A DNA stretch of 39,065 nt from a virus: the IMG/VR virus record IMGVR_UViG_3300045454_000126, positions 1 to 39,065 of that record; one strand, written 5' to 3'. This document shows, piece by piece, positions 1 through 39,065 of the stretch. The notes under the pieces were generated by a model. That model was not told the origin of the DNA and searched no databases. It worked only from the letters and a program-made list of their open reading frames with translations. The position numbers were made by a program, and so were the translations under genes. Each line of letters opens with the position of its first letter. The stretch's first letter is position 1.

Positions 1-207
1 TCAGGCGGCCTTCTTGCCGCCGTCGCCGGAGAGGAGACCGATCACGCCGGCCGCGATGATGCCGAGGTCGTTGAGCAGCGAGCCGACCTGCATGTCGCCG
101 GTTGCGACCGAGGTGAGGATGTGCGCCAGCGCCAGCAGTATCGCGCTGGTTCCGGCCGTGGTGGTGGCCTTGTTGCCGGTGATGGCAGCGAGGATGGACT
201 TGAGCAT
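1..207 (-). CDS. Possible internal in-frame start: 68-residue holin-like membrane protein
   Basis: Inside the endolysin frame an ATG at 207 begins MLKSILAAITGNKATTTAG and runs to the same stop. A GGAG lies 8 bases upstream of this ATG, as expected for independent initiation. The 68-residue product has two hydrophobic segments and a Lys-rich end (GGKKAA), and small proteins of this form commonly occur as separate genes in phage lysis cassettes. It may therefore be an in-frame internal product acting as a holin, or a fusion of a formerly separate gene to the endolysin. The Shine-Dalgarno and the hydrophobicity are visible; separate translation is inferred. Confidence 0.35.
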   Translation of the reverse strand: MLKSILAAITGNKATTTAGTSAILLALAHILTSVATGDMQVGSLLNDLGIIAAGVIGLLSGDGGKKAA

Positions 208-1188
208 GAAACGATCTCCGGAGGAATGTCGCGCGTGCTGCACGAGCAGCACCAGGACGGCCGCGGCCGCGCCTGCCACGACGGGGAGGGGGAGGCCGGC
301 AAGCGCCGAGCCGATGACGACGGCGCCAGCTCCGGCGGCGGCGGGGAGGCTCTGCGGCGCCGAGCCCAGCGGGGTGACGAACTCCCAATCAACCAGGCCC
401 TTGCCCGGCAGGCCGATCGCCGCGGCGGCGGCCGGGGTGAGATCGATCCCGGCCCGGTTGGTGCGGCCGTCCCCCTCGGCGCGCGGCCGGGCGTCGGCGG
501 TCCAGTAGGGATCGGCCGCGCCGCGCCAGCTCGGATACCAGGGGCCGACGTCGACCACGTCGCAGACCACGGACCGGACGCCCCGGGTGACGCGGACCTT
601 CGGCCGCACGCCGGGCGGGAAGCGCCAGGGGAGCGCGACGCCGGGCCGGTCGGGGTCGACCCGGCCGCCATAGGCGCTCGCTTGCTCGTCGCCCGGCCCG
701 CCGAACACCGTGGCGGTGATGTCGCGCTGCCGGCCGGGCGGCGGTGCCGTCGCCGGCGGGGCGGTCGCCGCGGGGCGCGCACCGCCGAACGGCAGGTCCC
801 ATGGGCGGGCGTCGTCGTAGGCCGACGCATCCGGCATCACAGAGATGTGGACGTGCTTGTCGTGCCGGCTCGCCCCCGTGTAGGGCCGCCACGTCCACGG
901 CGAGATGGTCGACGAGACGATCCGGCCGGCGCTGATCACGTACTTGATGCGCGGGTCGCGCGAGCCGCGCAGGTGCTCGGCGAGCGCTGCGGTGTCGACG
1001 CCGCCGGCCGGGTCATGGGTGATGTCGATCGCCGTCACGACGCCCGCGCTGTTCGGGTTGTGGTCGCTCGCGCGCGCGGCGTGTGCGGCGTCACCGATCG
1101 TGCCGTCCCAATCGCGGCGGCGCGCCGGCCGGGCCGCGTCGATCTGCCGGCGCAGCGTGTCGAGCGACGCGGCCAGGCGCCATGTCAT
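1..1188 (-). CDS. Endolysin-like peptidoglycan hydrolase (M15-like peptidase plus RlpA-like barrel, C-terminal membrane segments)
   Basis: Predicted 395-residue lysis protein. The first ~120 residues carry an M15-type zinc carboxypeptidase signature: SDHNPN, then AIDITHD, then HVHISV, giving the usual His, Asp, His metal ligands, so it probably cuts peptide cross-links in peptidoglycan. A second domain (about 150-270) resembles an RlpA-like double-psi barrel, with VVDVGPW and a GRTNRAGIDL segment. It is followed by a hydrophobic stretch near 290-325 and a hydrophobic tail of ~68 residues. The start at 1188 (MTWRLAAS) was chosen over longer in-frame starts because the upstream gene's TGA overlaps this ATG as TGATG. 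The tail has its own ribosome site and start codon (see 1-207). The gene reaches the window edge but has its own stop. Confidence 0.8.
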   Translation of the reverse strand: MTWRLAASLDTLRRQIDAARPARRRDWDGTIGDAAHAARASDHNPNSAGVVTAIDITHDPAGGVDTAALAEHLRGSRDPRIKYVISAGRIVSSTISPWTWRPYTGASRHDKHVHISVMPDASAYDDARPWDLPFGGARPAATAPPATAPPPGRQRDITATVFGGPGDEQASAYGGRVDPDRPGVALPWRFPPGVRPKVRVTRGVRSVVCDVVDVGPWYPSWRGAADPYWTADARPRAEGDGRTNRAGIDLTPAAAAAIGLPGKGLVDWEFVTPLGSAPQSLPAAAGAGAVVIGSALAGLPLPVVAGAAAAVLVLLVQHARHSSGDRFMLKSILAAITGNKATTTAGTSAILLALAHILTSVATGDMQVGSLLNDLGIIAAGVIGLLSGDGGKKAA

Positions 1189-1433
1189 CAGCCGATCCCG
1201 CCCTTGGCCGGGTCGGGCGCCGGCGCGGTGCGCTTGTCGAGCAGGTCGGCCAGCTCGCGGAACGCCTGCTCCAGCGCCTCGATGCGCTCGTCGCGGGCCG
1301 TCTTGCTGGCCGCAGCCGCCCGCCAGCGCGCCACGAAAGTGCGGGCGATCTTCGCGCCGCCGTACAGCGTGGCGAAACCGCCGATCGCCGCGAACAGGTC
1401 CACGATCGACGGGAGGTAGGAGACGGCTTGCAT
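1188..1433 (-). CDS. Small membrane-anchored protein of the lysis cassette (holin or inner-spanin candidate)
   Basis: 81 residues. One hydrophobic segment near residues 10-32 (VDLFAAIGGFATLYGGAKIA) is followed by a charged helical stretch with heptad character (RDERIEALEQAFRELADLL) and a Pro-rich tail. This shape suits a holin or an inner-membrane spanin subunit. It is directly coupled to the endolysin by a TGATG overlap at 1188. An intrinsic terminator just upstream (1449-1473) separates it from the tail genes, so the lysis pair may depend on readthrough or on its own promoter, which was not found. No family was recognised with confidence. Confidence 0.65.
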   Translation of the reverse strand: MQAVSYLPSIVDLFAAIGGFATLYGGAKIARTFVARWRAAAASKTARDERIEALEQAFRELADLLDKRTAPAPDPAKGGIG

Positions 1434-1448
1434 GTGATGGCTCCAATG

Positions 1449-1473
1449 AAAAAGCCGCCCGGCGAGGGCGGCT
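1449..1473 (-). terminator. Intrinsic terminator between tail genes and lysis cassette
   Basis: On the minus strand an 8-bp stem (AGCCGCCC / GGGCGGCT) with a 5-base loop is followed by TTTTTC. It lies between the DUF4376 gene (ends 1498) and the 81-residue lysis gene (starts 1433), so it would stop late transcription before lysis genes unless RNA polymerase is antiterminated. Confidence 0.75.
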
Positions 1474-1497
1474 CGTACGGATCAAGGTGAGGTGAGA

Positions 1498-2094
1498 TCA
1501 GGCCACCGCGAAGGCGGCGTCGATCTCGGCCGGAGTCGTGATGGTGCCGGCGTCGATCGCGGCGACCACCTCGTCGTAGAGGCGGAACGCGGCATCGACA
1601 TGACCCAGCACCGCGGCCGAAATCGCGATGACCTGCGCGGCACTAACCGGGTGCCGTACGCCATCGGCGGCGGTCCACACGGTCGACCACGCGGGGTCGG
1701 CCTCCGCATGGGTGCGCGCGCCGGCGATCAGCAGCTTGGAGCGATCGTCTGTCGCAATCGTGATGCCGCCGACCACGATGCCGCCGACCTCGCGCCGCCA
1801 TCGTGCGTCGGCCGCATAGTCGACGAGGTCGACAGGTGTGATCGGCGCGGAGACCGGCGCCTCTGGCGCCTGCGGCGTGATGCCGGCTGACGCGCACTCG
1901 TCGAGCATCTCGTCCTCCGTGAGGCCGAGGCGCGAGAGCGTGTCGCCGACTGTGACCATTCGCCACTGCGGCGGTTCGCCGGCCTGTGCGTCATTGGCCC
2001 ACGTCGTGGTCGCGCCGAGGATCGCGCGCAGCGCCTCGGGGTAGGAGGCAGTGCCGCGGAGCGCGTCCAGGTCTGCTCGTGTATTGATGATCAT
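1498..2094 (-). CDS. DUF4376-like tail-associated protein
   Basis: 198 residues. The C-terminal ~110 residues match the DUF4376 pattern found in phage tail-fibre neighbours: ARWRREVGGIVVGG, TDDRSKLLIAGAR, DGVRHPVSAAQVIAIS, then a helical end. The N-terminal part has a Gln/Pro-rich linker and no recognised domain. The start MIINTRADLDALR at 2094 was chosen because GGGGGGA lies six bases upstream and the ATG overlaps the stop of the fibre gene (ATGA). Position directly after the receptor-binding fibre suggests a fibre-associated or fibre-assembly role, which is an inference. Confidence 0.72.
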   Translation of the reverse strand: MIINTRADLDALRGTASYPEALRAILGATTTWANDAQAGEPPQWRMVTVGDTLSRLGLTEDEMLDECASAGITPQAPEAPVSAPITPVDLVDYAADARWRREVGGIVVGGITIATDDRSKLLIAGARTHAEADPAWSTVWTAADGVRHPVSAAQVIAISAAVLGHVDAAFRLYDEVVAAIDAGTITTPAEIDAAFAVA

Positions 2095-3560
2095 TCGATC
2101 CCCCCGGACCAGACATGGCACAGGTGGTCACAGCGACCGCGGGCGCCGAAGGTGGCGCTTGAGACCGAAGGCGCGCTGTTCCAGACCGCCGCACGCGACC
2201 CGCCGTTCGCCGCGACGCCCCAGGCGCCCCCGAGGAGCACGGCGTTCTCTTGCTGATAGGTTTGGCCCCTGCCCCCGGTGTTGTTGACCCAGGCGGCTGG
2301 CTCCGCGCCGCCGCCGAAGTTGCGGCCCCAGACAAACATGTTTCCCGCTGCGAGCATGACGCCCCAGCGCGACGTGTAGGCTTGGCGCAGGATCGTCGAG
2401 ACCGGGTCGGTGCCTCCGGAGGTGTTCTCGGTCGTTCCGTAGGCCGCTGCGGCGAACTCATCGTAGCTCAGGAGCTGTTTTCCCGCGGCCGCGAGCACTT
2501 CCGCGGCCTCCCACCAGGTCAGGGTGGAATAGGTCGTCGACCCGTTGCCGCCGAATGCGGTCGGGATTTTCGGCGGGCTCGACCCATCGGCGATCGTCAC
2601 GTTGTAGCGGCTGGTGCCGTTGACGTGATGATCGACGCCCGTCAGGTAGATGTCGCACCAGAATCCGCCCGCCACCAGCGTCATGCCGCGCGGATCGTTA
2701 CAGGCCGGCCGGAACTTGATGTCCCAGACCGAATAGGGGTTGATCTGGGGCGTCGTATCGCCGCCCGACGTGCCTGTCGCGTTGCCGCCCGGTGCATAGT
2801 GGAAGCCGCCGATGCGGCGGCTGTTGGCGACCGTGAACCCGGTCGGAGCGCTGAACGACGCATCGGCCCGCAGCGTGCCGTCATTGCATATGTATATCGC
2901 GTAGTCGGTCCCGGCCGCGAGCGTCGGCATCTGCACCGCGGTGTCGACGGCAAACTGATAGAGCAAACCGGCAAGGCCGATGGTCGTGCCAGCCTTGAGG
3001 CTGACAGCTCCGGCTCCGGTCCTGAGAAACGCAACGCTGTACGGATCAGCCTTGTGAAATACGTCGCTGACCAGGTCGACGACCGCAGCCGAACCAACGA
3101 GCGCGCGGGCCGCGGCAGTGATGATGCCCTCGACAGCGATCCCAGCACCAGTAGAGTACTGATACCTGTCCGCAGCGCTCGGCACCCAGCCGTTTATTCC
3201 TGCCGGGCCCTGAGGGCCTGCGGGGCCGACGAGCGACGTCCCTGCGGGCCACACGCCGGACGCCTTCGGCCCATACAAGGTGTCGGTGTTGGTATTTATG
3301 TAGAAGTCGCCATCGACGCCGAGGCCAGAGGATGGCGCGCCGGCACCATATCGCATTCGCGGCACCGCCGCCGCGGACGCCGCAGCCGCCGCGGCCGATC
3401 CAGCCGCTTCATTGGCGCCCGCCAGCGCCGCCGCCGCGGACGCCGCAGCCGCCGCGGACGAGTCGCGAGCGGCCGCAACGGCCACGGCCGCGCCGTAAAC
3501 CGGCACGACACGGAGCCGCAGCGCCGAGCGGGTATGGAGTCGCAGGCGGAGCGCAGTCAT
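2091..3560 (-). CDS. Receptor-binding tail fibre with Mtd-like C-type-lectin C-terminus
   Basis: 489 residues, probably the distal adhesin of the virion. Order: a short N-terminus (1-30); an Ala/Ser/Glu-rich coiled segment (31-67); a fibre-stem motif DGDFYINTNTDTLYG (~83-97); a collagen-like GPAGPQGPAG (~112-121); a beta-rich middle; and a C-terminal domain from ~290 with WGRNFGGGAEPAAW, ENAVLLGGAWGV, GGSRAAVWNSAPS and FGARGRCDHLC. This ending closely resembles, from memory, the variable region of Mtd, the C-type-lectin-fold adhesin diversified by a retroelement in Bordetella phage BPP-1. No reverse transcriptase, template repeat or Avd-like gene is visible in the window. Its start overlaps the upstream stop (ATGA). 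Confidence 0.8.
   Translation of the reverse strand: MTALRLRLHTRSALRLRVVPVYGAAVAVAAARDSSAAAAASAAAALAGANEAAGSAAAAAASAAAVPRMRYGAGAPSSGLGVDGDFYINTNTDTLYGPKASGVWPAGTSLVGPAGPQGPAGINGWVPSAADRYQYSTGAGIAVEGIITAAARALVGSAAVVDLVSDVFHKADPYSVAFLRTGAGAVSLKAGTTIGLAGLLYQFAVDTAVQMPTLAAGTDYAIYICNDGTLRADASFSAPTGFTVANSRRIGGFHYAPGGNATGTSGGDTTPQINPYSVWDIKFRPACNDPRGMTLVAGGFWCDIYLTGVDHHVNGTSRYNVTIADGSSPPKIPTAFGGNGSTTYSTLTWWEAAEVLAAAGKQLLSYDEFAAAAYGTTENTSGGTDPVSTILRQAYTSRWGVMLAAGNMFVWGRNFGGGAEPAAWVNNTGGRGQTYQQENAVLLGGAWGVAANGGSRAAVWNSAPSVSSATFGARGRCDHLCHVWSGGIE
3365..3457. repeat. 30-bp direct repeat in the fibre gene (3365-3394 and 3428-3457)
   Basis: Two exact 30-base copies begin at 3365 and 3428, 63 bases (21 codons) apart. 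They encode the Ala/Ser-rich helical stem of the fibre. The in-frame spacing allows stem length to change by recombination or slippage without breaking the gene. Confidence 0.85.
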
Positions 3561-3904
3561 CGCGGACCGCCGTCGATCACCGGCAGATCGCCGGCAATCA
3601 GCTGTGTGACATCTCCGCTGGCCGTCACGATGCGCACGTACACGGGGTGGGAGCCGGGACAGAGCGCCGTCATCGCGTCGGCGCGCGCCCGCCAGGTGAA
3701 TGCGCCGAGGCCGGTGATCACGACACCTCCGTCATCGGTCGAGAGCGTCACGACGGCAGACTGCGTGTCCTCGGGTCGCGCCACCATGACGGTGATCGTC
3801 GCTCCGCTCAGGTCGATCGGCGCGCTCGTCTCAGGGTCGACGATCTCGCACGCAACCTCCCAGTCCGCGCGGTTCGACGCTGCACTCAGATTGCCCTGAT
3901 ACAT
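3557..3904 (-). CDS. Small beta-rich baseplate/fibre-region protein
   Basis: 115 residues starting MYQGNLSAASNRADWEVACE. The pattern WEVACEIVDPETSAPIDLSGATITVMVA, split by turns and alternating hydrophobic residues, suggests an immunoglobulin-like or BppU-like beta sandwich of the kind that joins fibres to a baseplate. No family can be named with certainty. It lies between the collar-type fibre (3914-5086) and the Mtd-like fibre, and its stop overlaps the start of the latter (ATGA), so the two are probably made together. Confidence 0.65.
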   Translation of the reverse strand: MYQGNLSAASNRADWEVACEIVDPETSAPIDLSGATITVMVARPEDTQSAVVTLSTDDGGVVITGLGAFTWRARADAMTALCPGSHPVYVRIVTASGDVTQLIAGDLPVIDGGPR

Positions 3905-3913
3905 GCCGCGCCC

Positions 3914-5086
3914 TTAGAGCTTAATGTAGATTGTCGCGAGGATAGTCGGCTGGACCGTACGAACCGGGTCAGAGGTCCCGCCTAGCGCCGCCGCCTGTCC
4001 GGCGAAGGTCGCGGAAGACACGGAGATGTTGGCGTTCGCCCCCTGGACACCGATGCCGGTACCGGCCGGGGATAGCCAGATTCCTGTGGTGGCCCATTGA
4101 ACTGAAACGTCAGAAGCCGTCATGCCCGGGTTAGGTCCGGCGCCGTAGTACCCGCCACCGCCTCCATGCAGCACCAACGTGCCGTTGTTGATCCCGTGTG
4201 CGTGGCCCGGATCGTTGACGGAGTGATTGTGGCCCGGATCGCTGACCCCGTGCGCGTGGGGTGTTTGAGCCAGCGACACCGAGACGGTGCCCGCTGGCGT
4301 GTAGCTGATCGGAGGAAGGTTCGTTGCGGCGAGCGAGCGGCTCTCTGCACCGCCAACCGCGCCAAGAACGGTCGCCGTGGCGCCGAAGAACGACGACGTC
4401 AGGCGGCCCGCCGCGGTCGAGCCCATGTCGTCGAGGCCGGCCAGCGCGCGACCACGCGCGTCGGGGAGAGCGATGGTCTTGTTCGCGAGCCAGTCGGCAT
4501 TAGCGCTCGCGCCGCGCCCGCCGGAGACGGCGAGGTTGGAGTCCGCGGACCACAAGTACTCGAACAGCGCCTGTGCGTCGGCATGCGCGCGCTCGGTGGC
4601 GCCGCTGGTCGCCGAGCCGATCGTGCGTCCGTTTGCGCGCACCCAGCCGCTGATTGGCCCGGTGCCGTAGCGGTGTTGGATCGAGCCGGTCGAGAAAACC
4701 GTCGTCGGGTCGACGGCGCTGCCGCCGCCGCTTCCCGACGAGGGGCCGATGACGAGCACGCCGTCTGCGGCGAGCATCTGCACACCGGCGCGGTCGGTGA
4801 GCCGAACCTTGATGCTGCCGTCCGCGAAGAACAGTTGCGGCAGCCGCCCGGCCGCGTCGCACACCACGGGCCAGGGGTGAGGGATGGTCAGCCCGCCATC
4901 CTGATAGGCGTTCCGCGGCGTCGTGGTGCCGGCCGCGTAGGTGTAGAGCAGGCACCCGGCAAGCGGCCGCCCCTGGGTGTCGACCTGCACCGACAGCGAG
5001 AGCGGGATGGAGCCGGCGGCAAGCGCCGGCCAGGCGCCGAGGATCAGCGCCGAGAGAGCCGCAGCGGCGGCGAGGAGTCGGGGCAT
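3914..5086 (-). CDS. Tail-collar-type fibre protein with an N-terminal signal-like sequence
   Basis: 390 residues. A mid-region GWVRANGRTIGSATSG plus LFEYLW and TIALPDARGRALAGLDDMG is typical of phage tail-collar domains. Further on is a His-rich string of HAHG, HNHS and HAHG units separated by DPG turns, the metal-binding type seen in trimeric fibres, and the end is beta-rich. The first 23 residues (MPRLLAAAAALSALILGAWPALA) look like a cleavable Sec signal, which is unusual for a virion protein. It starts 69 bases from the divergent plus-strand gene at 5156. Confidence 0.78.
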   Translation of the reverse strand: MPRLLAAAAALSALILGAWPALAAGSIPLSLSVQVDTQGRPLAGCLLYTYAAGTTTPRNAYQDGGLTIPHPWPVVCDAAGRLPQLFFADGSIKVRLTDRAGVQMLAADGVLVIGPSSGSGGGSAVDPTTVFSTGSIQHRYGTGPISGWVRANGRTIGSATSGATERAHADAQALFEYLWSADSNLAVSGGRGASANADWLANKTIALPDARGRALAGLDDMGSTAAGRLTSSFFGATATVLGAVGGAESRSLAATNLPPISYTPAGTVSVSLAQTPHAHGVSDPGHNHSVNDPGHAHGINNGTLVLHGGGGGYYGAGPNPGMTASDVSVQWATTGIWLSPAGTGIGVQGANANISVSSATFAGQAAALGGTSDPVRTVQPTILATIYIKL

Positions 5087-5155
5087 AGCTGTTACCGGAG
5101 GTTGAAACGAGCCGTCGGTTGTGCTCCGCTACCGGCACTTCGATAGGAGGGGCAC

Positions 5156-5302
5156 ATGCGCATGTTCGCGATGCTGATCGCGGTCATCTTCGTCGTCGGC
5201 ATGGTGGCTGAGGCCGAGGCAAAGGGCAGGAAGGGCAGCACGCGGGTCGGCGGCTACACCAGCCACGGCAAGGGAAGCCATTACATCGGTGGCCGGCGAT
5301 GA
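5156..5302 (+). CDS. 48-residue secreted Gly/Lys-rich peptide (moron candidate)
   Basis: The ATG at 5156 follows a strong AGGAGGGG. The product opens with a signal peptide (MRMFAMLIAVIFVVGMVAEA, cut probably after EAEA) and leaves a ~26-residue basic peptide rich in Gly, Ser, Lys and His (KGRKGSTRVGGYTSHGKGSH). Its stop overlaps the start of the lipoprotein gene (ATGA). It runs against the surrounding late genes, so it probably has its own expression in the lysogen. Function unknown; short exported basic peptides of this form recur in alphaproteobacteria. Confidence 0.6.
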   Translation: MRMFAMLIAVIFVVGMVAEAEAKGRKGSTRVGGYTSHGKGSHYIGGRR

Positions 5303-5826
5303 CAGCGAGAAGCGGCCGGCCGCTCTACATCGTCGGCCTGGTAATCCTGACGGCATCTCTTATTTCCTGCGCCTCAGATCGTAATCAAGAAGCCGAGCGC
5401 AATGCAGAGATTAAGCGCGCCTCTGAAGCGGAGATTGACCGATGCGCAGCGCGGTACTCTCCGGTCACCCGAGCGAACGCCATCGCATGGGCAGACTGCA
5501 AGATTGCGGCGACGGAAATGCTGCGTCCTATCGCACGATATCCTGATCTGATTAGCTTGATGATCGCCACCTACCGTCGGTCTGTTGAGCGGTTTGCAAG
5601 GGGGGAGATCACCATGGCGCAGGTCCAAGAGGATGTGGCCCGCGTAACCTCAGCCGCAACATCCGAAGAGCAAAGGCGTCGTTTGGCGGAGATAAACACG
5701 ATCCTGGCCGGGGAGGCGGTTTCGGCTGCCGAAAGACAGGCTGGCGCGGCGGAGCGGGCGGCTCGGCCAGTCATACAGCCTGCGCCAGATCCGAAGCCGT
5801 TCGTCATGCAGCCAATTGGCCGGTAG
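5299..5826 (+). CDS. Lipoprotein with helical periplasmic domain (moron candidate)
   Basis: 175 residues. A hydrophobic N-terminus ends in a lipobox (LISC, Cys at residue 24), predicting lipid attachment and export. The rest is charged and helical (NQEAERNAEIKRASEAEI, then SEEQRRRLAEINTIL) with a Pro-rich tail. It is translationally coupled to the 48-residue secreted peptide. A surface lipoprotein encoded against the late genes of a prophage fits a lysogenic-conversion or superinfection-exclusion role, but no known exclusion family was recognised. Its base composition is somewhat less GC-rich than its neighbours. Confidence 0.72.
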   Translation: MTARSGRPLYIVGLVILTASLISCASDRNQEAERNAEIKRASEAEIDRCAARYSPVTRANAIAWADCKIAATEMLRPIARYPDLISLMIATYRRSVERFARGEITMAQVQEDVARVTSAATSEEQRRRLAEINTILAGEAVSAAERQAGAAERAARPVIQPAPDPKPFVMQPIGR

Positions 5827-5909
5827 GAGTGTGACGTCTGGTTCGTATAGGTATCCTGATACTCGCCGTGGTGACGTGGACGCTCGTTCCGTTCCCTTGG
5901 TCGTTTTGG

Positions 5910-8042
5910 CTACTGGTCCTCGGCGCGGCCGCCCGCCACTCCACCGAGGCTTGCGCCCTGGTACGGGGCGACCTGGACGCTCCCGCGCGCCGCCGGCAGA
6001 TCGAGGTTCTGGAGTGCCTGGAGAAGTCGGCGGTTGCCAGAGACCATCTGGACGCCGCGGGCCAGCACCGCCGGGTCAGGTGACACCAGCATCTCGGCAA
6101 CGCGGCGTGCCACGCGCTCGTCGACACGGGCTCGGCCGCGCGCCAGTCCGTAGACCAGAGCGGCTTGGGTTAGCGCCCCGGCGTCCGGGTTCAGCACGTT
6201 GCCGCCCGTCCCCATCGTGTAGGCGCCGCCGGCCAGCCCGAGTTCAACGAGCTGGCGCGCGGTGGTCGAGTTGCCTTGCACCGCGCTGCGCAGCCGGTCC
6301 ATGGCGTGTTCGACGGTCAAGAACGCTTCGACGCGCCGCCATCCCTGTTCGCCGAGGGCGAGTCGGATCTTGTTCCGCGCCTCTGGGCTGGCCGCGATCT
6401 TGTTGAGCACGTTCACCCGATCGCGGGTGTTGTTGATGTCGTCGATCAACCGGGCCGCGAAACCCAGGCGAAACAGCTCGCGCACCTGCGGGCGCATCCG
6501 AGCGAGCGCGGCTGCGGCGTCGCGAGCCGGCATGGTCCGGCGCACGAACTCCTCACCGGCGGTCAGCGCGTCCTCGGCGCCGAAGAACCCGGCGGCGCCG
6601 GCGCGCGCCTCTGGATAGGTCCGCACCAGATCATCGAGCCTGCCGACCAGGGCGTTCCGGAGCTGGATTGCGTCCCGCGCCGCCGAGTTCTCGCCGACCC
6701 GCTGCAGCGCCGTGATACGATCATCGAGGTTGCGTTTGACCATGTCCCAGAATTGGAGGTTTGGGACGAGGCGCTGGCCGTCCGGGCCAACGGCCGGGCG
6801 CATGTAGCCGTCGGGGTCGAATGTGAATGGGTTGCGGAGCGGCGGGAACCCGTCGATGGCCGCTCTGTTTCCAGCTGTCCTGGCCGATGCCCGGATCGCG
6901 TCCTGCACGACCGGCGCGCTGGCGATCTGAGCAAACCCCTCGTCCCACAGGGCGGCGCCGCGCGGGTCGGAGAACGCCCGTTGATAGGCTGGCCGGTTGG
7001 CGGCGCGCGCCTCGGCCCTCAGCCCCTCGCGGATCGCGGTGCTGTCGACGTTGCCGCCGACCAGTCGCCGCAGGAAGGCCGAGGCGCGGTCGGCTTGCCC
7101 CTCGAAACGGTCATTCGCCAGTCGGTCGAGCGATGCCCGGCCCTCCGGCGAGGTGTTGGCGGCTGATCGGGCGAGCGCGCGCGTCGTCTCGCCGCCGAGG
7201 TCGGCGACAGCGACCGGGGCGCCACCGCGCTGCGCCGCTTGCCATTCGGCCATCGAGATCGGCGCAGAGCCGGCCCGGATGTCCCGATCAATCGCGCCGA
7301 CAACTCGGCGGGCCGCCTCGGCTTCCGGGTCGCGCCAACCGCGCACCGTGCTGGTGACCGGGCGTGCCGCCGCGGCGACGCCGCGTCCGGCCGCCTCGAT
7401 CCCGCGCATCACGACGGGAGCGGCGCCGCCGGCAGCGGCACCGAACGCCGCGCCGGTCGCGGCGCCAGTGGCTCGGCTCGCCATGTCCTCGCCCTCGCCA
7501 GCGCCTGCCGCAGCCCCATAGCCGGCGCCGACCACAGCAGATCGCCCGATGCGAGCCGGCAGCGTTGCCGCGCCCAGCGCACCACCCACGGGCAGGGCGA
7601 CGGCACCGGCGATCTCTCCGGCCAGCGTCGTGCCGGGGTACTGCTTCTCTGCCGCCTTCTGGACGCCGCGGATGCGGTCTCGGCCCTCCTCGTAGGCGGC
7701 GGTGGCGGCGCCGCGGCCGGCCAGTGCCTCGTAGGCGAGCCGCGCGGCGCCGACTGGGATGCGCAGGCCGCCGACCGGCTCTGGCATGCCGCTGGCTCGG
7801 GCCACACCGTACAGTTCGTCCCGAAAATTCGCGGTGGCGCCGCCAAGCAGGCCCTCGAACAACGCGCGCGCCCAACCGACGTCGGCCGTGGTCGGAAAAG
7901 CGGCCCACGGGTCTGCGTCGCCCTGGCCGGACTGCGGGGCCGGGCCGGGCGTCACGGTGATGCGCGTCGGGGCGGGCGAGGCAGGGGCGGTGGGCGGCTC
8001 CGGGCCGGCCGCGACCGCCGGGAAGGCGTCCCACTCGCTCAC
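5910..8042 (-). CDS. Large putative DNA-ejection (internal virion) protein
   Basis: 710 residues, GTG start overlapping the upstream stop (GTGA at 8039-8042). The N-terminus has two copies of a D-A/P-W-x-AFP motif (EWDAFPAV, DPWAAFPTT). Residues ~140-250 are a Gly/Ala-rich hydrophobic stretch that could enter membranes, and the second half is long helical sequence. It is the third of three large genes after the gp10-like tail gene, the place held by gp7, gp20 and gp16 in P22, and has gp16-like size (P22 gp16 is about 609). Assignment rests on position, size and composition, not on a motif match. Confidence 0.65.
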   Translation of the reverse strand: MSEWDAFPAVAAGPEPPTAPASPAPTRITVTPGPAPQSGQGDADPWAAFPTTADVGWARALFEGLLGGATANFRDELYGVARASGMPEPVGGLRIPVGAARLAYEALAGRGAATAAYEEGRDRIRGVQKAAEKQYPGTTLAGEIAGAVALPVGGALGAATLPARIGRSAVVGAGYGAAAGAGEGEDMASRATGAATGAAFGAAAGGAAPVVMRGIEAAGRGVAAAARPVTSTVRGWRDPEAEAARRVVGAIDRDIRAGSAPISMAEWQAAQRGGAPVAVADLGGETTRALARSAANTSPEGRASLDRLANDRFEGQADRASAFLRRLVGGNVDSTAIREGLRAEARAANRPAYQRAFSDPRGAALWDEGFAQIASAPVVQDAIRASARTAGNRAAIDGFPPLRNPFTFDPDGYMRPAVGPDGQRLVPNLQFWDMVKRNLDDRITALQRVGENSAARDAIQLRNALVGRLDDLVRTYPEARAGAAGFFGAEDALTAGEEFVRRTMPARDAAAALARMRPQVRELFRLGFAARLIDDINNTRDRVNVLNKIAASPEARNKIRLALGEQGWRRVEAFLTVEHAMDRLRSAVQGNSTTARQLVELGLAGGAYTMGTGGNVLNPDAGALTQAALVYGLARGRARVDERVARRVAEMLVSPDPAVLARGVQMVSGNRRLLQALQNLDLPAARGSVQVAPYQGASLGGVAGGRAEDQ

Positions 8043-21066: not shown

Positions 21067-21999
21067 TCATAGAAACTTCCGGCCGGCGTGGTCGCGGAAT
21101 GCCTTGGCGCGTCGGTCATAGGCTTTCAGCGTGCGCACCTCACGATGGCGCGTCACGTCCATCACCTTGAGCAGATCGGCGCCGGACTCCAGAGCGCTGG
21201 TGACGAAGCCCGCGCGCAAGCTGTGGCCGCTGAACAGCGCTGGATTGAGCCCGGCCGCGGCCGCACGACGCTTCACAATCTCAGCGACTGCGTGCTCGGA
21301 CAGCCGTCCGGCGGCAACCCGGCCGCCGCGGTTGACCGCGCGGAACACCGGGCCTTCGGTGATTGCCGCGGCCGACAGCCAGGCATCGAGCGCCTGGACC
21401 GGCCGGAGCTTTCCGCCGGTCGGCACCGCGACTTGGTGGCCCTCGCCTTCCTGGTCGGTCTTGGACCTCCGGATGTGGAGGACCACGCCTTCCGGGGTCC
21501 GCTCCAGGTCGGCGACCGTGAGTGCGACGAGTTCTGAACGGCGGAGCGCTGCCGCGAAGCCGATCAGCAGGAGGGCGCGGTCGCGCCGCCCTTGCATGGT
21601 GTCCGGGATGCCCTTGAGCATCGCGGTGATGGCGCGCGCCGTCGCGGGAGCCTTTTGCTCGACCGCGACGCCGACCCGCCGCCGAATGCCTCTCAGCACC
21701 GCCTTGGTCGGCTCGGCGGCGGTCGGAGGGGACGACCCGGCCAGCCGATGCGCGTATGAGATCGCGGCGGTCCGCCGCATGATGGTGCTCGCCTTCAACC
21801 TGGCGTCGGCCAGAGAGGCGAGATAGGCCGCGACGGTCTCGACCGCGGCGGGCAGCGGCGCGACGGCGTGGGAGGAGCACCACGCCCGGAAGTGATCCCA
21901 GTCGCTCGCATAGGCCCGCCGGGTCGCGGCCGATTTCTCGGCCATCGCGTAGGCGCGGGCGGACGCTAGCGCGTCGACAAGGCCCTCTCCGCATCCCAT
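21067..21999 (-). CDS. Tyrosine recombinase (internal integrase)
   Basis: 310 residues. N-terminal SAM-like DNA-binding domain (SAATRRAYASDWDHFRAWC) and a catalytic domain with all expected residues: Arg in LRRSELVALT, Lys in RRSKTDQEG, HSLRAGFVTSA (HxxR), His in TRHREVRT, Tyr in LKAYDRR. It is distinct from the integrase at the right end. The start at 21999 (MGCGEGLVDA) is a best choice and overlaps the HNH gene end by 34 bases; a longer in-frame start exists at 22140. Lying within a late-oriented block, it could be a remnant of an earlier integrated element or a second recombination module. Confidence 0.82.
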   Translation of the reverse strand: MGCGEGLVDALASARAYAMAEKSAATRRAYASDWDHFRAWCSSHAVAPLPAAVETVAAYLASLADARLKASTIMRRTAAISYAHRLAGSSPPTAAEPTKAVLRGIRRRVGVAVEQKAPATARAITAMLKGIPDTMQGRRDRALLLIGFAAALRRSELVALTVADLERTPEGVVLHIRRSKTDQEGEGHQVAVPTGGKLRPVQALDAWLSAAAITEGPVFRAVNRGGRVAAGRLSEHAVAEIVKRRAAAAGLNPALFSGHSLRAGFVTSALESGADLLKVMDVTRHREVRTLKAYDRRAKAFRDHAGRKFL

Positions 22000-22643
22000 C
22001 CGCGCGAGAGCCGGTCGCCTATTTTCCGCGGGTCGACGCCCGAGATTTCGGATGCCTCCGCAAGCGTGATCTTCCGGCCTCGGTACCAGAGCAGCCGGTT
22101 GCGGCTGGTATTCCGGGCCTGTTCTGACCTCGTCGCCCAACGGCAGTTCCCCGGCTCATAATCGCCGCTATTGTCGATGCGATGGATCGAATGCGCCGGC
22201 GACGGCCGGGGACCGACATCCTCAAGGAACGCGGCGAAGGAGTTCTTCCACCGCTCGCAGATCCCTATTCCGCGAGCGCCGTACCTCTCAAATTCCGGAC
22301 GGCGCGGGTCCAGACAGCGGGTACGCATCCCGCGCCAGATCACGAATTCAGGGGTTTTTGTCTTTCCGTGCTTGAAGTTCGGGTTTTGAGCCCCCGACGG
22401 AGCGCCGCCACCCTTCCGGAGAGCTGCTCGTTTTCGGCACCCGCAGCTCCTGGAGTTACCGCTTTTGACGCTCGATGCTGTGGTGATGCTTTCCGCGCCA
22501 CAGTCGCACCGGAAACGCCACAGCCGCTTTCCACTGGTGGTGGTCCGGCCGATATACTCGATCGCGACAAGACGTCCGAATCGAGATCCTTCGACCATCT
22601 CCCTGGAGCGTGATGTGCTACGACTTTCGTCAGCTCGCGGCAT
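21966..22643 (-). CDS. HNH homing-endonuclease-like protein
   Basis: 225 residues. A metal-binding cluster (FRCDCGAE ... SCGCRKR) is followed by a core typical of phage HNH proteins: EFVIWRGMRTRCLDP, YGARGIGICERWKNSFAAFLEDVG, SIHRIDNSGDYEPGNCRWAT (H-N-type catalytic loop), and a C-terminal helix-turn-helix (TLAEASEISGVDPRKIGDRL) for DNA recognition. The start at 22643 was chosen because GGAGGAA stands five bases before it. It overlaps the tyrosine recombinase start by 34 bases. Such genes are often selfish insertions. Confidence 0.8.
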   Translation of the reverse strand: MPRADESRSTSRSREMVEGSRFGRLVAIEYIGRTTTSGKRLWRFRCDCGAESITTASSVKSGNSRSCGCRKRAALRKGGGAPSGAQNPNFKHGKTKTPEFVIWRGMRTRCLDPRRPEFERYGARGIGICERWKNSFAAFLEDVGPRPSPAHSIHRIDNSGDYEPGNCRWATRSEQARNTSRNRLLWYRGRKITLAEASEISGVDPRKIGDRLSRGWDAERALSTR

Positions 22644-37855: not shown

Positions 37856-38050
37856 ATGCCTCGCGCCGGTCCGACATTCCGTCAAGCCGACCTGACCCGC
37901 GCCCTGAGGGCGGCGGTTGCGGCTGGCGTGAAGGTCGCCAAGGTCGAGATCGAGGGCAGCAAGATCACGATCCATTCCGACACCGCGGCGCCGGCCGAGC
38001 CGGAGAGCGACCTGGACAGATGGATGGCGGGCCGTGCGCGTCAGGCTTAG
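37856..38050 (+). CDS. 64-residue phage protein next to integrase
   Basis: MPRAGPTFRQADLTRALRAAVAAGVKVAKVEIEG, in two parts, then SKITIHSDTAAPAEPESDLD. This small ferredoxin-like pattern (FRQADLTRALRAA, VEIEGSKI) is very common just before integrases in alphaproteobacterial prophages. Overlaps the integrase start by 17 bases. Function unknown. Confidence 0.72.
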   Translation: MPRAGPTFRQADLTRALRAAVAAGVKVAKVEIEGSKITIHSDTAAPAEPESDLDRWMAGRARQA

Positions 38051-39065
38051 GGGCATCAACCGCGTCACGAAGCGGCTCGCCGACGGCCGGACCGTCACCT
38101 ACTGGTATGCCTGGAAAGGCGGGCCGCGCCTGGACGGCGAGCCCGGCACGCCCGAGTTCTTCGCCAGCTACAACGCCGCGGTCGCCCGCAAGGTGTCGCC
38201 ACCGACGGGCGTGTTGCAGTCCGTCCTGCAGGGCTATCAGCTCAGCACCGATTTCACCGACCTCGCGGCTCGCACCCGGGCCGACTACGTGAAGCAGATC
38301 CGGATCGTCGAAGGCGAGTTCGGCGACTTTCCGTTGAGCGCGCTCGCCGACCGCCGCACCCGCGGCGTCTTCATGGCGTGGCGCGACCGGCTCGCCGCGA
38401 CGTCCCGCCGGCAGGCCGATTACGCCTGGCAGGTGCTCGCGCGGGTGCTGTCGTGGGCCAAGGGCCGGGGCCTCGTCGCCGCGAACCCGTGCGAGCGCGG
38501 CGGCCGCCTGTACGGCGAGACGCGGGCCGAGAAGGTGTGGACGGCGGACGACGAGGCCGCGTTCCTGCGGACGGCGCCGGCGCACCTGCACCTTGCGCTG
38601 ATGCTCGCGCTATGGACCGGCCAGCGGCAAGGCGACCTGCTGCGCCTCGGGTGGTCGGCCTACGACGGCAGGGTGATTCGGCTGCGGCAGTCCAAGACCG
38701 GGGCGAGGGTGACGATCCCGGCGGGCGCGCCGTTGAAGGCTGCGCTCGATGCGGCGCCGCGGAAGTCCACCGTGATCTTGACCAACAGCGACGGCCGGGC
38801 CTGGACCGCGGACGGCTTCCGTTCGTCGTGGCGCAAGGCGTCCGCGAAGGCCGGCATCACCGGCGTCACCTTCAACGATCTCCGCGGGACCGCCGTGACC
38901 CGGCTGGCGCTCGCCGAATGCACCGAGGCCGAGATCGCGACCATCACGGGGCACAGCCTTCGGGACGTGCGATCGATCCTCGATGCGCACTACCTCGCCC
39001 GCGATCCCGCCCTCGGCGAGAGCGCGATCAGGAAGCTCGAACGACGAACGGATTCGTCCAACTGA
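38034..39065 (+). CDS. int: Tyrosine-family phage integrase
   Basis: 343 residues, GTG start. N-terminal arm-binding part (GGPRLDGEPGTPEFFASYNAA), a core-binding helical domain, and a catalytic domain with Arg (LWTGQRQGDLLRL), Lys (RQSKTGARV), NDLRGTAVTRLAL, GHSLRD and Tyr (DAHYLARD). Box II has Asn in place of the common His of HxxR (NDLR), a variant often seen in this family. The stop codon is the last three bases of the window, so the attachment site would lie just outside. Likely drives prophage integration and excision. Confidence 0.88.
   Translation: MRVRLRGINRVTKRLADGRTVTYWYAWKGGPRLDGEPGTPEFFASYNAAVARKVSPPTGVLQSVLQGYQLSTDFTDLAARTRADYVKQIRIVEGEFGDFPLSALADRRTRGVFMAWRDRLAATSRRQADYAWQVLARVLSWAKGRGLVAANPCERGGRLYGETRAEKVWTADDEAAFLRTAPAHLHLALMLALWTGQRQGDLLRLGWSAYDGRVIRLRQSKTGARVTIPAGAPLKAALDAAPRKSTVILTNSDGRAWTADGFRSSWRKASAKAGITGVTFNDLRGTAVTRLALAECTEAEIATITGHSLRDVRSILDAHYLARDPALGESAIRKLERRTDSSN

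Follow-up and report, generated by a model that had tools for sequence, protein, structure and literature searches.

The closest described relative of the locus analysed here is Mtd, the adhesin of phage BPP-1 (PDB 1yu0–1yu4), the variable region (VR) of which is rewritten by a diversity-generating retroelement (DGR). An AAC codon that is copied with random replacement of its adenines becomes NNC, so that a rewritten VR carries C-ending codons at those sites. Guo et al. found that a hairpin after the VR is needed for efficient homing, and disruption of its stem in BPP-1 cut tropism switching more than 1000-fold (PMC3240598). Mtd and DGRs are well known, and Mtd genes without a reverse transcriptase (RT) are present in deposited genomes, such as those of phages S-CBS1, S-CBS3 and P12026. 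The open-access literature that we searched, with most subscription journals outside the reach of that search, yielded no account of Mtd loci losing their DGRs.

Here we describe an Mtd homologue in a window of 39,065 bases that constitutes a whole IMG/VR record. We consider it probable that this Mtd fibre has lost its DGR and that its VR is now fixed.

A prophage with an Mtd-family fibre

The window encodes a portal (PF16510), a terminase, a major head protein and two integrases, and is a P22-like podovirus prophage. Both ends of the record fall exactly on reading-frame ends, and the window was therefore probably trimmed, as a provirus, out of a host contig. The two tyrosine-recombinase genes lie at 21067–22140 (minus strand) and 38034–39065 (plus strand), the second stopping exactly at the record end. 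In a search of Alphaproteobacteria, relatives of the portal, with up to 55% identity, were most frequent among Rhizobiales genomes (24 of 398). No Rfam family matched positions 1–6000 of the window, and viral contigs scanned for its left-end sequence gave no match. The features around the fibre are as follows.

1–1485, minus strand: lysis-type gene region, downstream of the fibre; 127 bases at 1348–1474 are identical in sister phage L142/L149
1452–1474, minus strand: terminator-like hairpin just past the chaperone gene; one found against 1.0 expected in shuffles, and so notable by position only
1498–2094, minus strand: tail-fibre chaperone-like gene P0002 with DUF4376 (Pfam E 3e-21; phrog_10508), in the position of the Bbp4-like gene of DGR loci
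2091–3560, minus strand: mtd homologue, 489 aa, host-range fibre or receptor-binding protein (intact open reading frame, homology and fold)
2094–2111, minus strand: C-terminal extension WSGGIE, which runs into the start of the next gene; relatives have a stop codon and a DNA hairpin there
2094–3092, minus strand: Mtd second domain and C-type-lectin domain, residues 157–489 (AlphaFold, Foldseek)
2121–2237, minus strand: VR-equivalent LLGGAWGVAANGGSRAAVWNSAPSVSSATFGARGRCDHL, with 12 template-AAC sites, all NNC
3093–3560, minus strand: Ala-rich stretch and collagen-like linker, residues 1–156, with no match to the N-terminal domain of BPP-1 Mtd
3557–3904, minus strand: upstream neighbour of the fibre gene, shared with sister phages and flanking the swapped cassette

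The first-pass annotation had likened the last ~60 residues of the fibre to Mtd. The likeness is real, but that span is too narrow, as the homologous stretch covers ~325 residues. The open reading frame matches PHROG 11262, a tail protein, at E 9e-129, with similarity to Mtd over about residues 157–482, and Pfam mtd_2nd at E 4e-27; phmmer matches to the Mtd variants in the PDB span residues 159–480 (E 1e-110 to 3e-113), and identity to BPP-1 Mtd is 57% (tblastn). The N-terminal domain of BPP-1 Mtd found no match: at E ≤ 10 Pfam gave mtd_2nd only, and the PDB matches begin at residue 159. Residues ~70–125 match linkers in other fibres, and the extension WSGGIE occurs in no other Mtd homologue that we saw. 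The protein thus belongs to the Mtd family by its second and lectin domains and carries a replaced N-terminus.

An AlphaFold model of residues 157–489, built with 78 homologues, reached a mean pLDDT of 92 and a pTM of 0.90 (a whole-protein model with 12 sequences reached a pLDDT of only 36). The top five solved structures retrieved with this domain model by Foldseek are five Mtd variants (1yu2: TM 0.95, rmsd 1.0 Å, 56% identity), and formylglycine-generating enzymes, which also have a C-type-lectin-like fold, rank far below them. Prediction thus confirms a C-type-lectin fold, the absence of which had been named beforehand as counting against an Mtd-like fibre. The variable sites occupy the same places as in BPP-1 Mtd and, as in BPP-1, a homologue of the chaperone Bbp4 lies downstream, the resemblance being in the N-terminal part of P0002. 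By homology with Mtd, the fibre probably sits at the tail tip as the receptor-binding protein and would touch the receptor through the former VR.

The retroelement and the homing hairpin are absent

The first-pass annotation had noticed neither an RT, an Avd-like gene nor a template repeat (TR) in the window, and searches bear this out. No RT was found in the 39,065-base record by a search with positive controls; the best candidate for an Avd-like frame in the record had an E value of 3.1; and the best off-target matches to the VR within the record (33/60, 46/90 and 64/130) are at chance level for a TR. The window therefore differs from BPP-1 in having no avd, TR or brt, and the canonical place of the avd-TR-RT block is taken up by the chaperone gene, which begins at +39 past the mtd VR with its start overlapping the mtd stop (ATGA).

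The GC-rich stretch before the stop had been compared with the mutagenic-homing initiation site (IMH). This stretch and the TGTGACCACCTG that follows it do resemble BPP-1, and both also encode conserved residues; however, the hairpin with a GRNA loop that should come right after the VR is absent from the window. The IMH-like stretch is half a target site only. A terminal CTTG motif was dropped as a mark of the IMH, since the DGR-bearing loci L203 and G584 are without it.

Gene order in DGR-linked and RT-less Mtd loci

A profile scan found 386 relatives, 80 loci were fetched and, with phages and genomes included, 86 non-redundant loci were tabulated; a scan with P0002 gave one distant locus. 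An RT is present in 61 of the 86, and the gene order in these is mtd, avd, TR, RT and then the P0002/Bbp4 homologue. All 61 have their RT on the mtd strand, within a few kb downstream of that gene, and ahead of the chaperone gene wherever the latter was seen, the chaperone starting at +1359 to +1746 counted from the CDHL codons. A GRNA-loop hairpin stands just past the mtd stop in 57 of these loci, and the other four are without a recognisable strong hairpin. In the nine DGR-linked relatives that we studied closely (BPP-1 included), the TR is located about 430–470 bases beyond the VR and has AAC codons at the same sites, with mismatches mostly at template adenines.

Thirteen RT-less loci have at least 2 kb of downstream sequence. 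No RT occurs in the whole record where this was searched, nor anywhere in genome G777, which has an RT-less Mtd. A P0002-like gene was found in eight of the 13, at +36 to +94, with the avd-TR-RT block missing between its usual flanks. The hairpin is kept in three (L201, S-CBS1 and S-CBS3), compared with 57 of 61 RT-bearing loci (Fisher P = 3e-7).

TR/VR repeats can break metagenome assemblies, and one contig (L010) stops inside mtd just ahead of the VR; a DGR might accordingly have collapsed out of the assembly or been trimmed away. That the junction in the window is such an artefact is extremely improbable, given an open frame that runs with an ATGA overlap into the chaperone gene, the recurrence of this type of mtd-chaperone junction across the independent records L003, L201, L216, L222, L240, L242 and L245 and, on a short contig, in genome G752, and the RT-free genome G777.

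Some candidates were rejected during the survey. L004 does not count as RT-less, as its contig stops 433 bases past the VR, with the start of avd. The RT of genome G752 was rejected as a DGR acting in trans: it is on another contig without a matching TR, and the genes around it point to a retron- or defence-type RT. Nor does the RT of record G010 belong to a DGR of mtd, as it is accompanied by a separate TR and by two target genes other than mtd. This DGR (L134, 3081–6708) comprises the RT at 3081–4430, a TR near 4257 and tandem C-lectin targets at 4811–5692 and 5755–6708, and sits at the opposite end of the record from the Mtd gene, which is itself cut by the contig end. Elsewhere, an avd-like gene follows an Mtd homologue at L015:11416–11733 in a 50 kb record with no RT in its whole length. 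LR745708.1 (L278, in the phages collection) is listed as phage T7, with a gp17 annotated as an engineered BPP-1 Mtd fusion, and can mislead homology searches.

Codon pattern of the variable region

The 12 sites in the VR-equivalent are positions at which the templates of relatives read AAC or close to it. The window codons at these sites (GCC GGC GTC AAC GTC AAC AGC GTC AGC GCC ACC TTC) all end in C, 12 of 12, where the phage's codon usage for these amino acids would give 7.0 (P = 0.0012, in a test of one locus). At the other VR sites, C-ending codons number 10 of 25, against 13.7 expected. A second codon table gave P = 0.0005 for the window, the lowest among 14 RT-less loci. Half of these 14 keep P < 0.05 for NNC and the rest have lost it, and 89% of RT-bearing loci have P < 0.05; the mean number of NNC sites is 10.6 in RT-bearing and 8.5 in RT-less loci (P = 0.0015). 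Amino-acid agreement with eight clade members is 13/96 at the 12 sites, compared with 156/200 at other VR positions. The NNC pattern and the divergence at the 12 sites point to past adenine mutagenesis and, judged by its codons, the window VR appears to be a former DGR target.

A codon pattern as clean as that of DGR-linked loci could also mean that the VR is still being diversified, in trans, by a DGR past the edge of the trimmed record (on the far side of the lysis genes, the record stopping 2.1 kb from the mtd VR) or by one elsewhere in the host. The gene ends at both record ends, and with them the probable trimming, agree with this, as do the retained GC stretch and TGTGACCACCTG and the further DGR at the other end of the related mtd-bearing record G010. 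We nevertheless regard continued diversification as unlikely. In the 61 DGR-linked loci, the RT follows mtd on the same strand within a few kb, before the chaperone where that gene was seen; the homing hairpin, the stem of which matters so much for tropism switching in BPP-1 (PMC3240598), is missing; and the records of sister phages G018 and G019 contain no RT. It is very unlikely that the VR is rewritten by hairpin-independent homing from a DGR sited in another prophage or at some other place in the host.

Phylogeny and traces of deletion

In a maximum-likelihood tree of 86 Mtd domains, the RT-less loci are scattered, with 11 changes needed in the RT-less label, of which well-supported branches force at least 8. 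Some of these changes could instead reflect gain of a DGR, or mtd alleles swapped between loci with and without one. L003 and L201, both RT-less with the chaperone adjacent, and L204 form a group with the window; this group is sister to the DGR-bearing L001, L002, L203 and L254 and to L004, the contig of which ends inside avd.

L003 (IMG/VR 3300048577_000305), the tree partner of the window, likewise has mtd followed by the same chaperone and no RT, TR or hairpin, but it is otherwise a different phage and its codon scar is partly eroded (10/12). L204 (IMG/VR 3300048574_000090), of the same clade, also has neither RT nor TR but differs in keeping the hairpin. At L204:2044–2397, mtd is followed by the intact hairpin, about 63 residues of avd (half the gene) and, fused to these, the final dozen chaperone residues (ITTTAEIDATFA). 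This direct join of avd to the chaperone tail means that deletion has removed the TR, the RT and the greater part of the chaperone. Loss by deletion is thus shown for L204, which stands at an earlier stage of loss or at one reached independently; for the window, gene order and the tree suggest the same process. P12026 has a partial avd only.

Complete phages S-CBS1, S-CBS3 and P12026 have Mtd homologues without any RT, and RT-less loci are not rare, which would also suit an ordinary fixed C-lectin fibre that never had a DGR and that resembles Mtd through plain homology. Such an origin is quite unlikely for the window, in view of the NNC codon scar, its position nested among DGR-bearing relatives, the deletion scar in L204 and the partial avd in P12026. 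The Synechococcus phages S-CBS1 and S-CBS3 resemble the window in the missing RT, but are distant from it in the tree, keep the GRNA hairpin, show a weak or vanished codon scar and have no chaperone homologue that we found beside mtd. Their hairpin (cggcgcGACAgcgccg, after mtd in S-CBS3 (L154) and S-CBS1 (L156)) is perfect despite the missing RT, as if the target site were maintained, and they are possible candidates for diversification in trans or for recent loss.

The first-pass annotation had left the gene as a fossil, a fixed form or a target diversified in trans. The codon scar, the hypervariable sites, the missing block and hairpin and the deletion scar in L204 give good support to the fossil or fixed readings, and the missing hairpin makes diversification in trans unlikely.

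Cassette exchange and the probable course of loss

Sister phage L142 has a portal that is 92% identical to that of the window, and its DNA is 92% identical to window positions 4310–5933 and 100% identical to 1348–1474. Between these blocks it encodes a different fibre of 695 aa and no Mtd. In the close sister phage G018, an unrelated fibre of 695 aa (L149:356–2443) stands where the window has mtd and the chaperone. The different fibre between conserved flanks in L142 indicates that mtd and the chaperone travel as a cassette of ~2 kb, and such exchange gives an orphaned Mtd a way to spread unaccompanied by its DGR.

Under the reading that we favour, DGR loss followed by fixation of the VR, an ancestor of the window locus would have been diversified by a DGR. 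The avd-TR-RT block and the hairpin would then have been lost together, bringing mtd and the chaperone gene side by side, and the last VR written would now be inherited as a fixed sequence. The best reading is that this loss was recent relative to the other RT-less loci, because the codon scar is undamaged (12/12). Later change would come by ordinary point mutation or by a swap of the whole mtd-chaperone cassette between phages, and host change would follow the same routes.

Implications for Mtd-bearing phages

DGRs have mostly been described where they are active, and the window probably displays the aftermath of loss. Orphaning at a single locus is the less unexpected part; what a specialist may not expect is that DGR loss in Mtd loci appears recurrent and graded, the avd-TR-RT block going together with, mostly, the hairpin. 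After loss, the target remains, the mutator block is gone, as in most cases is the hairpin, and the codon scar fades unequally by lineage. The hairpin, the NNC score and the distance to the chaperone together would give a sequence-only way to distinguish active targets from those freshly orphaned and those orphaned long ago. With it, it becomes testable when a fixed receptor-binding protein pays a phage more than a diversified one.
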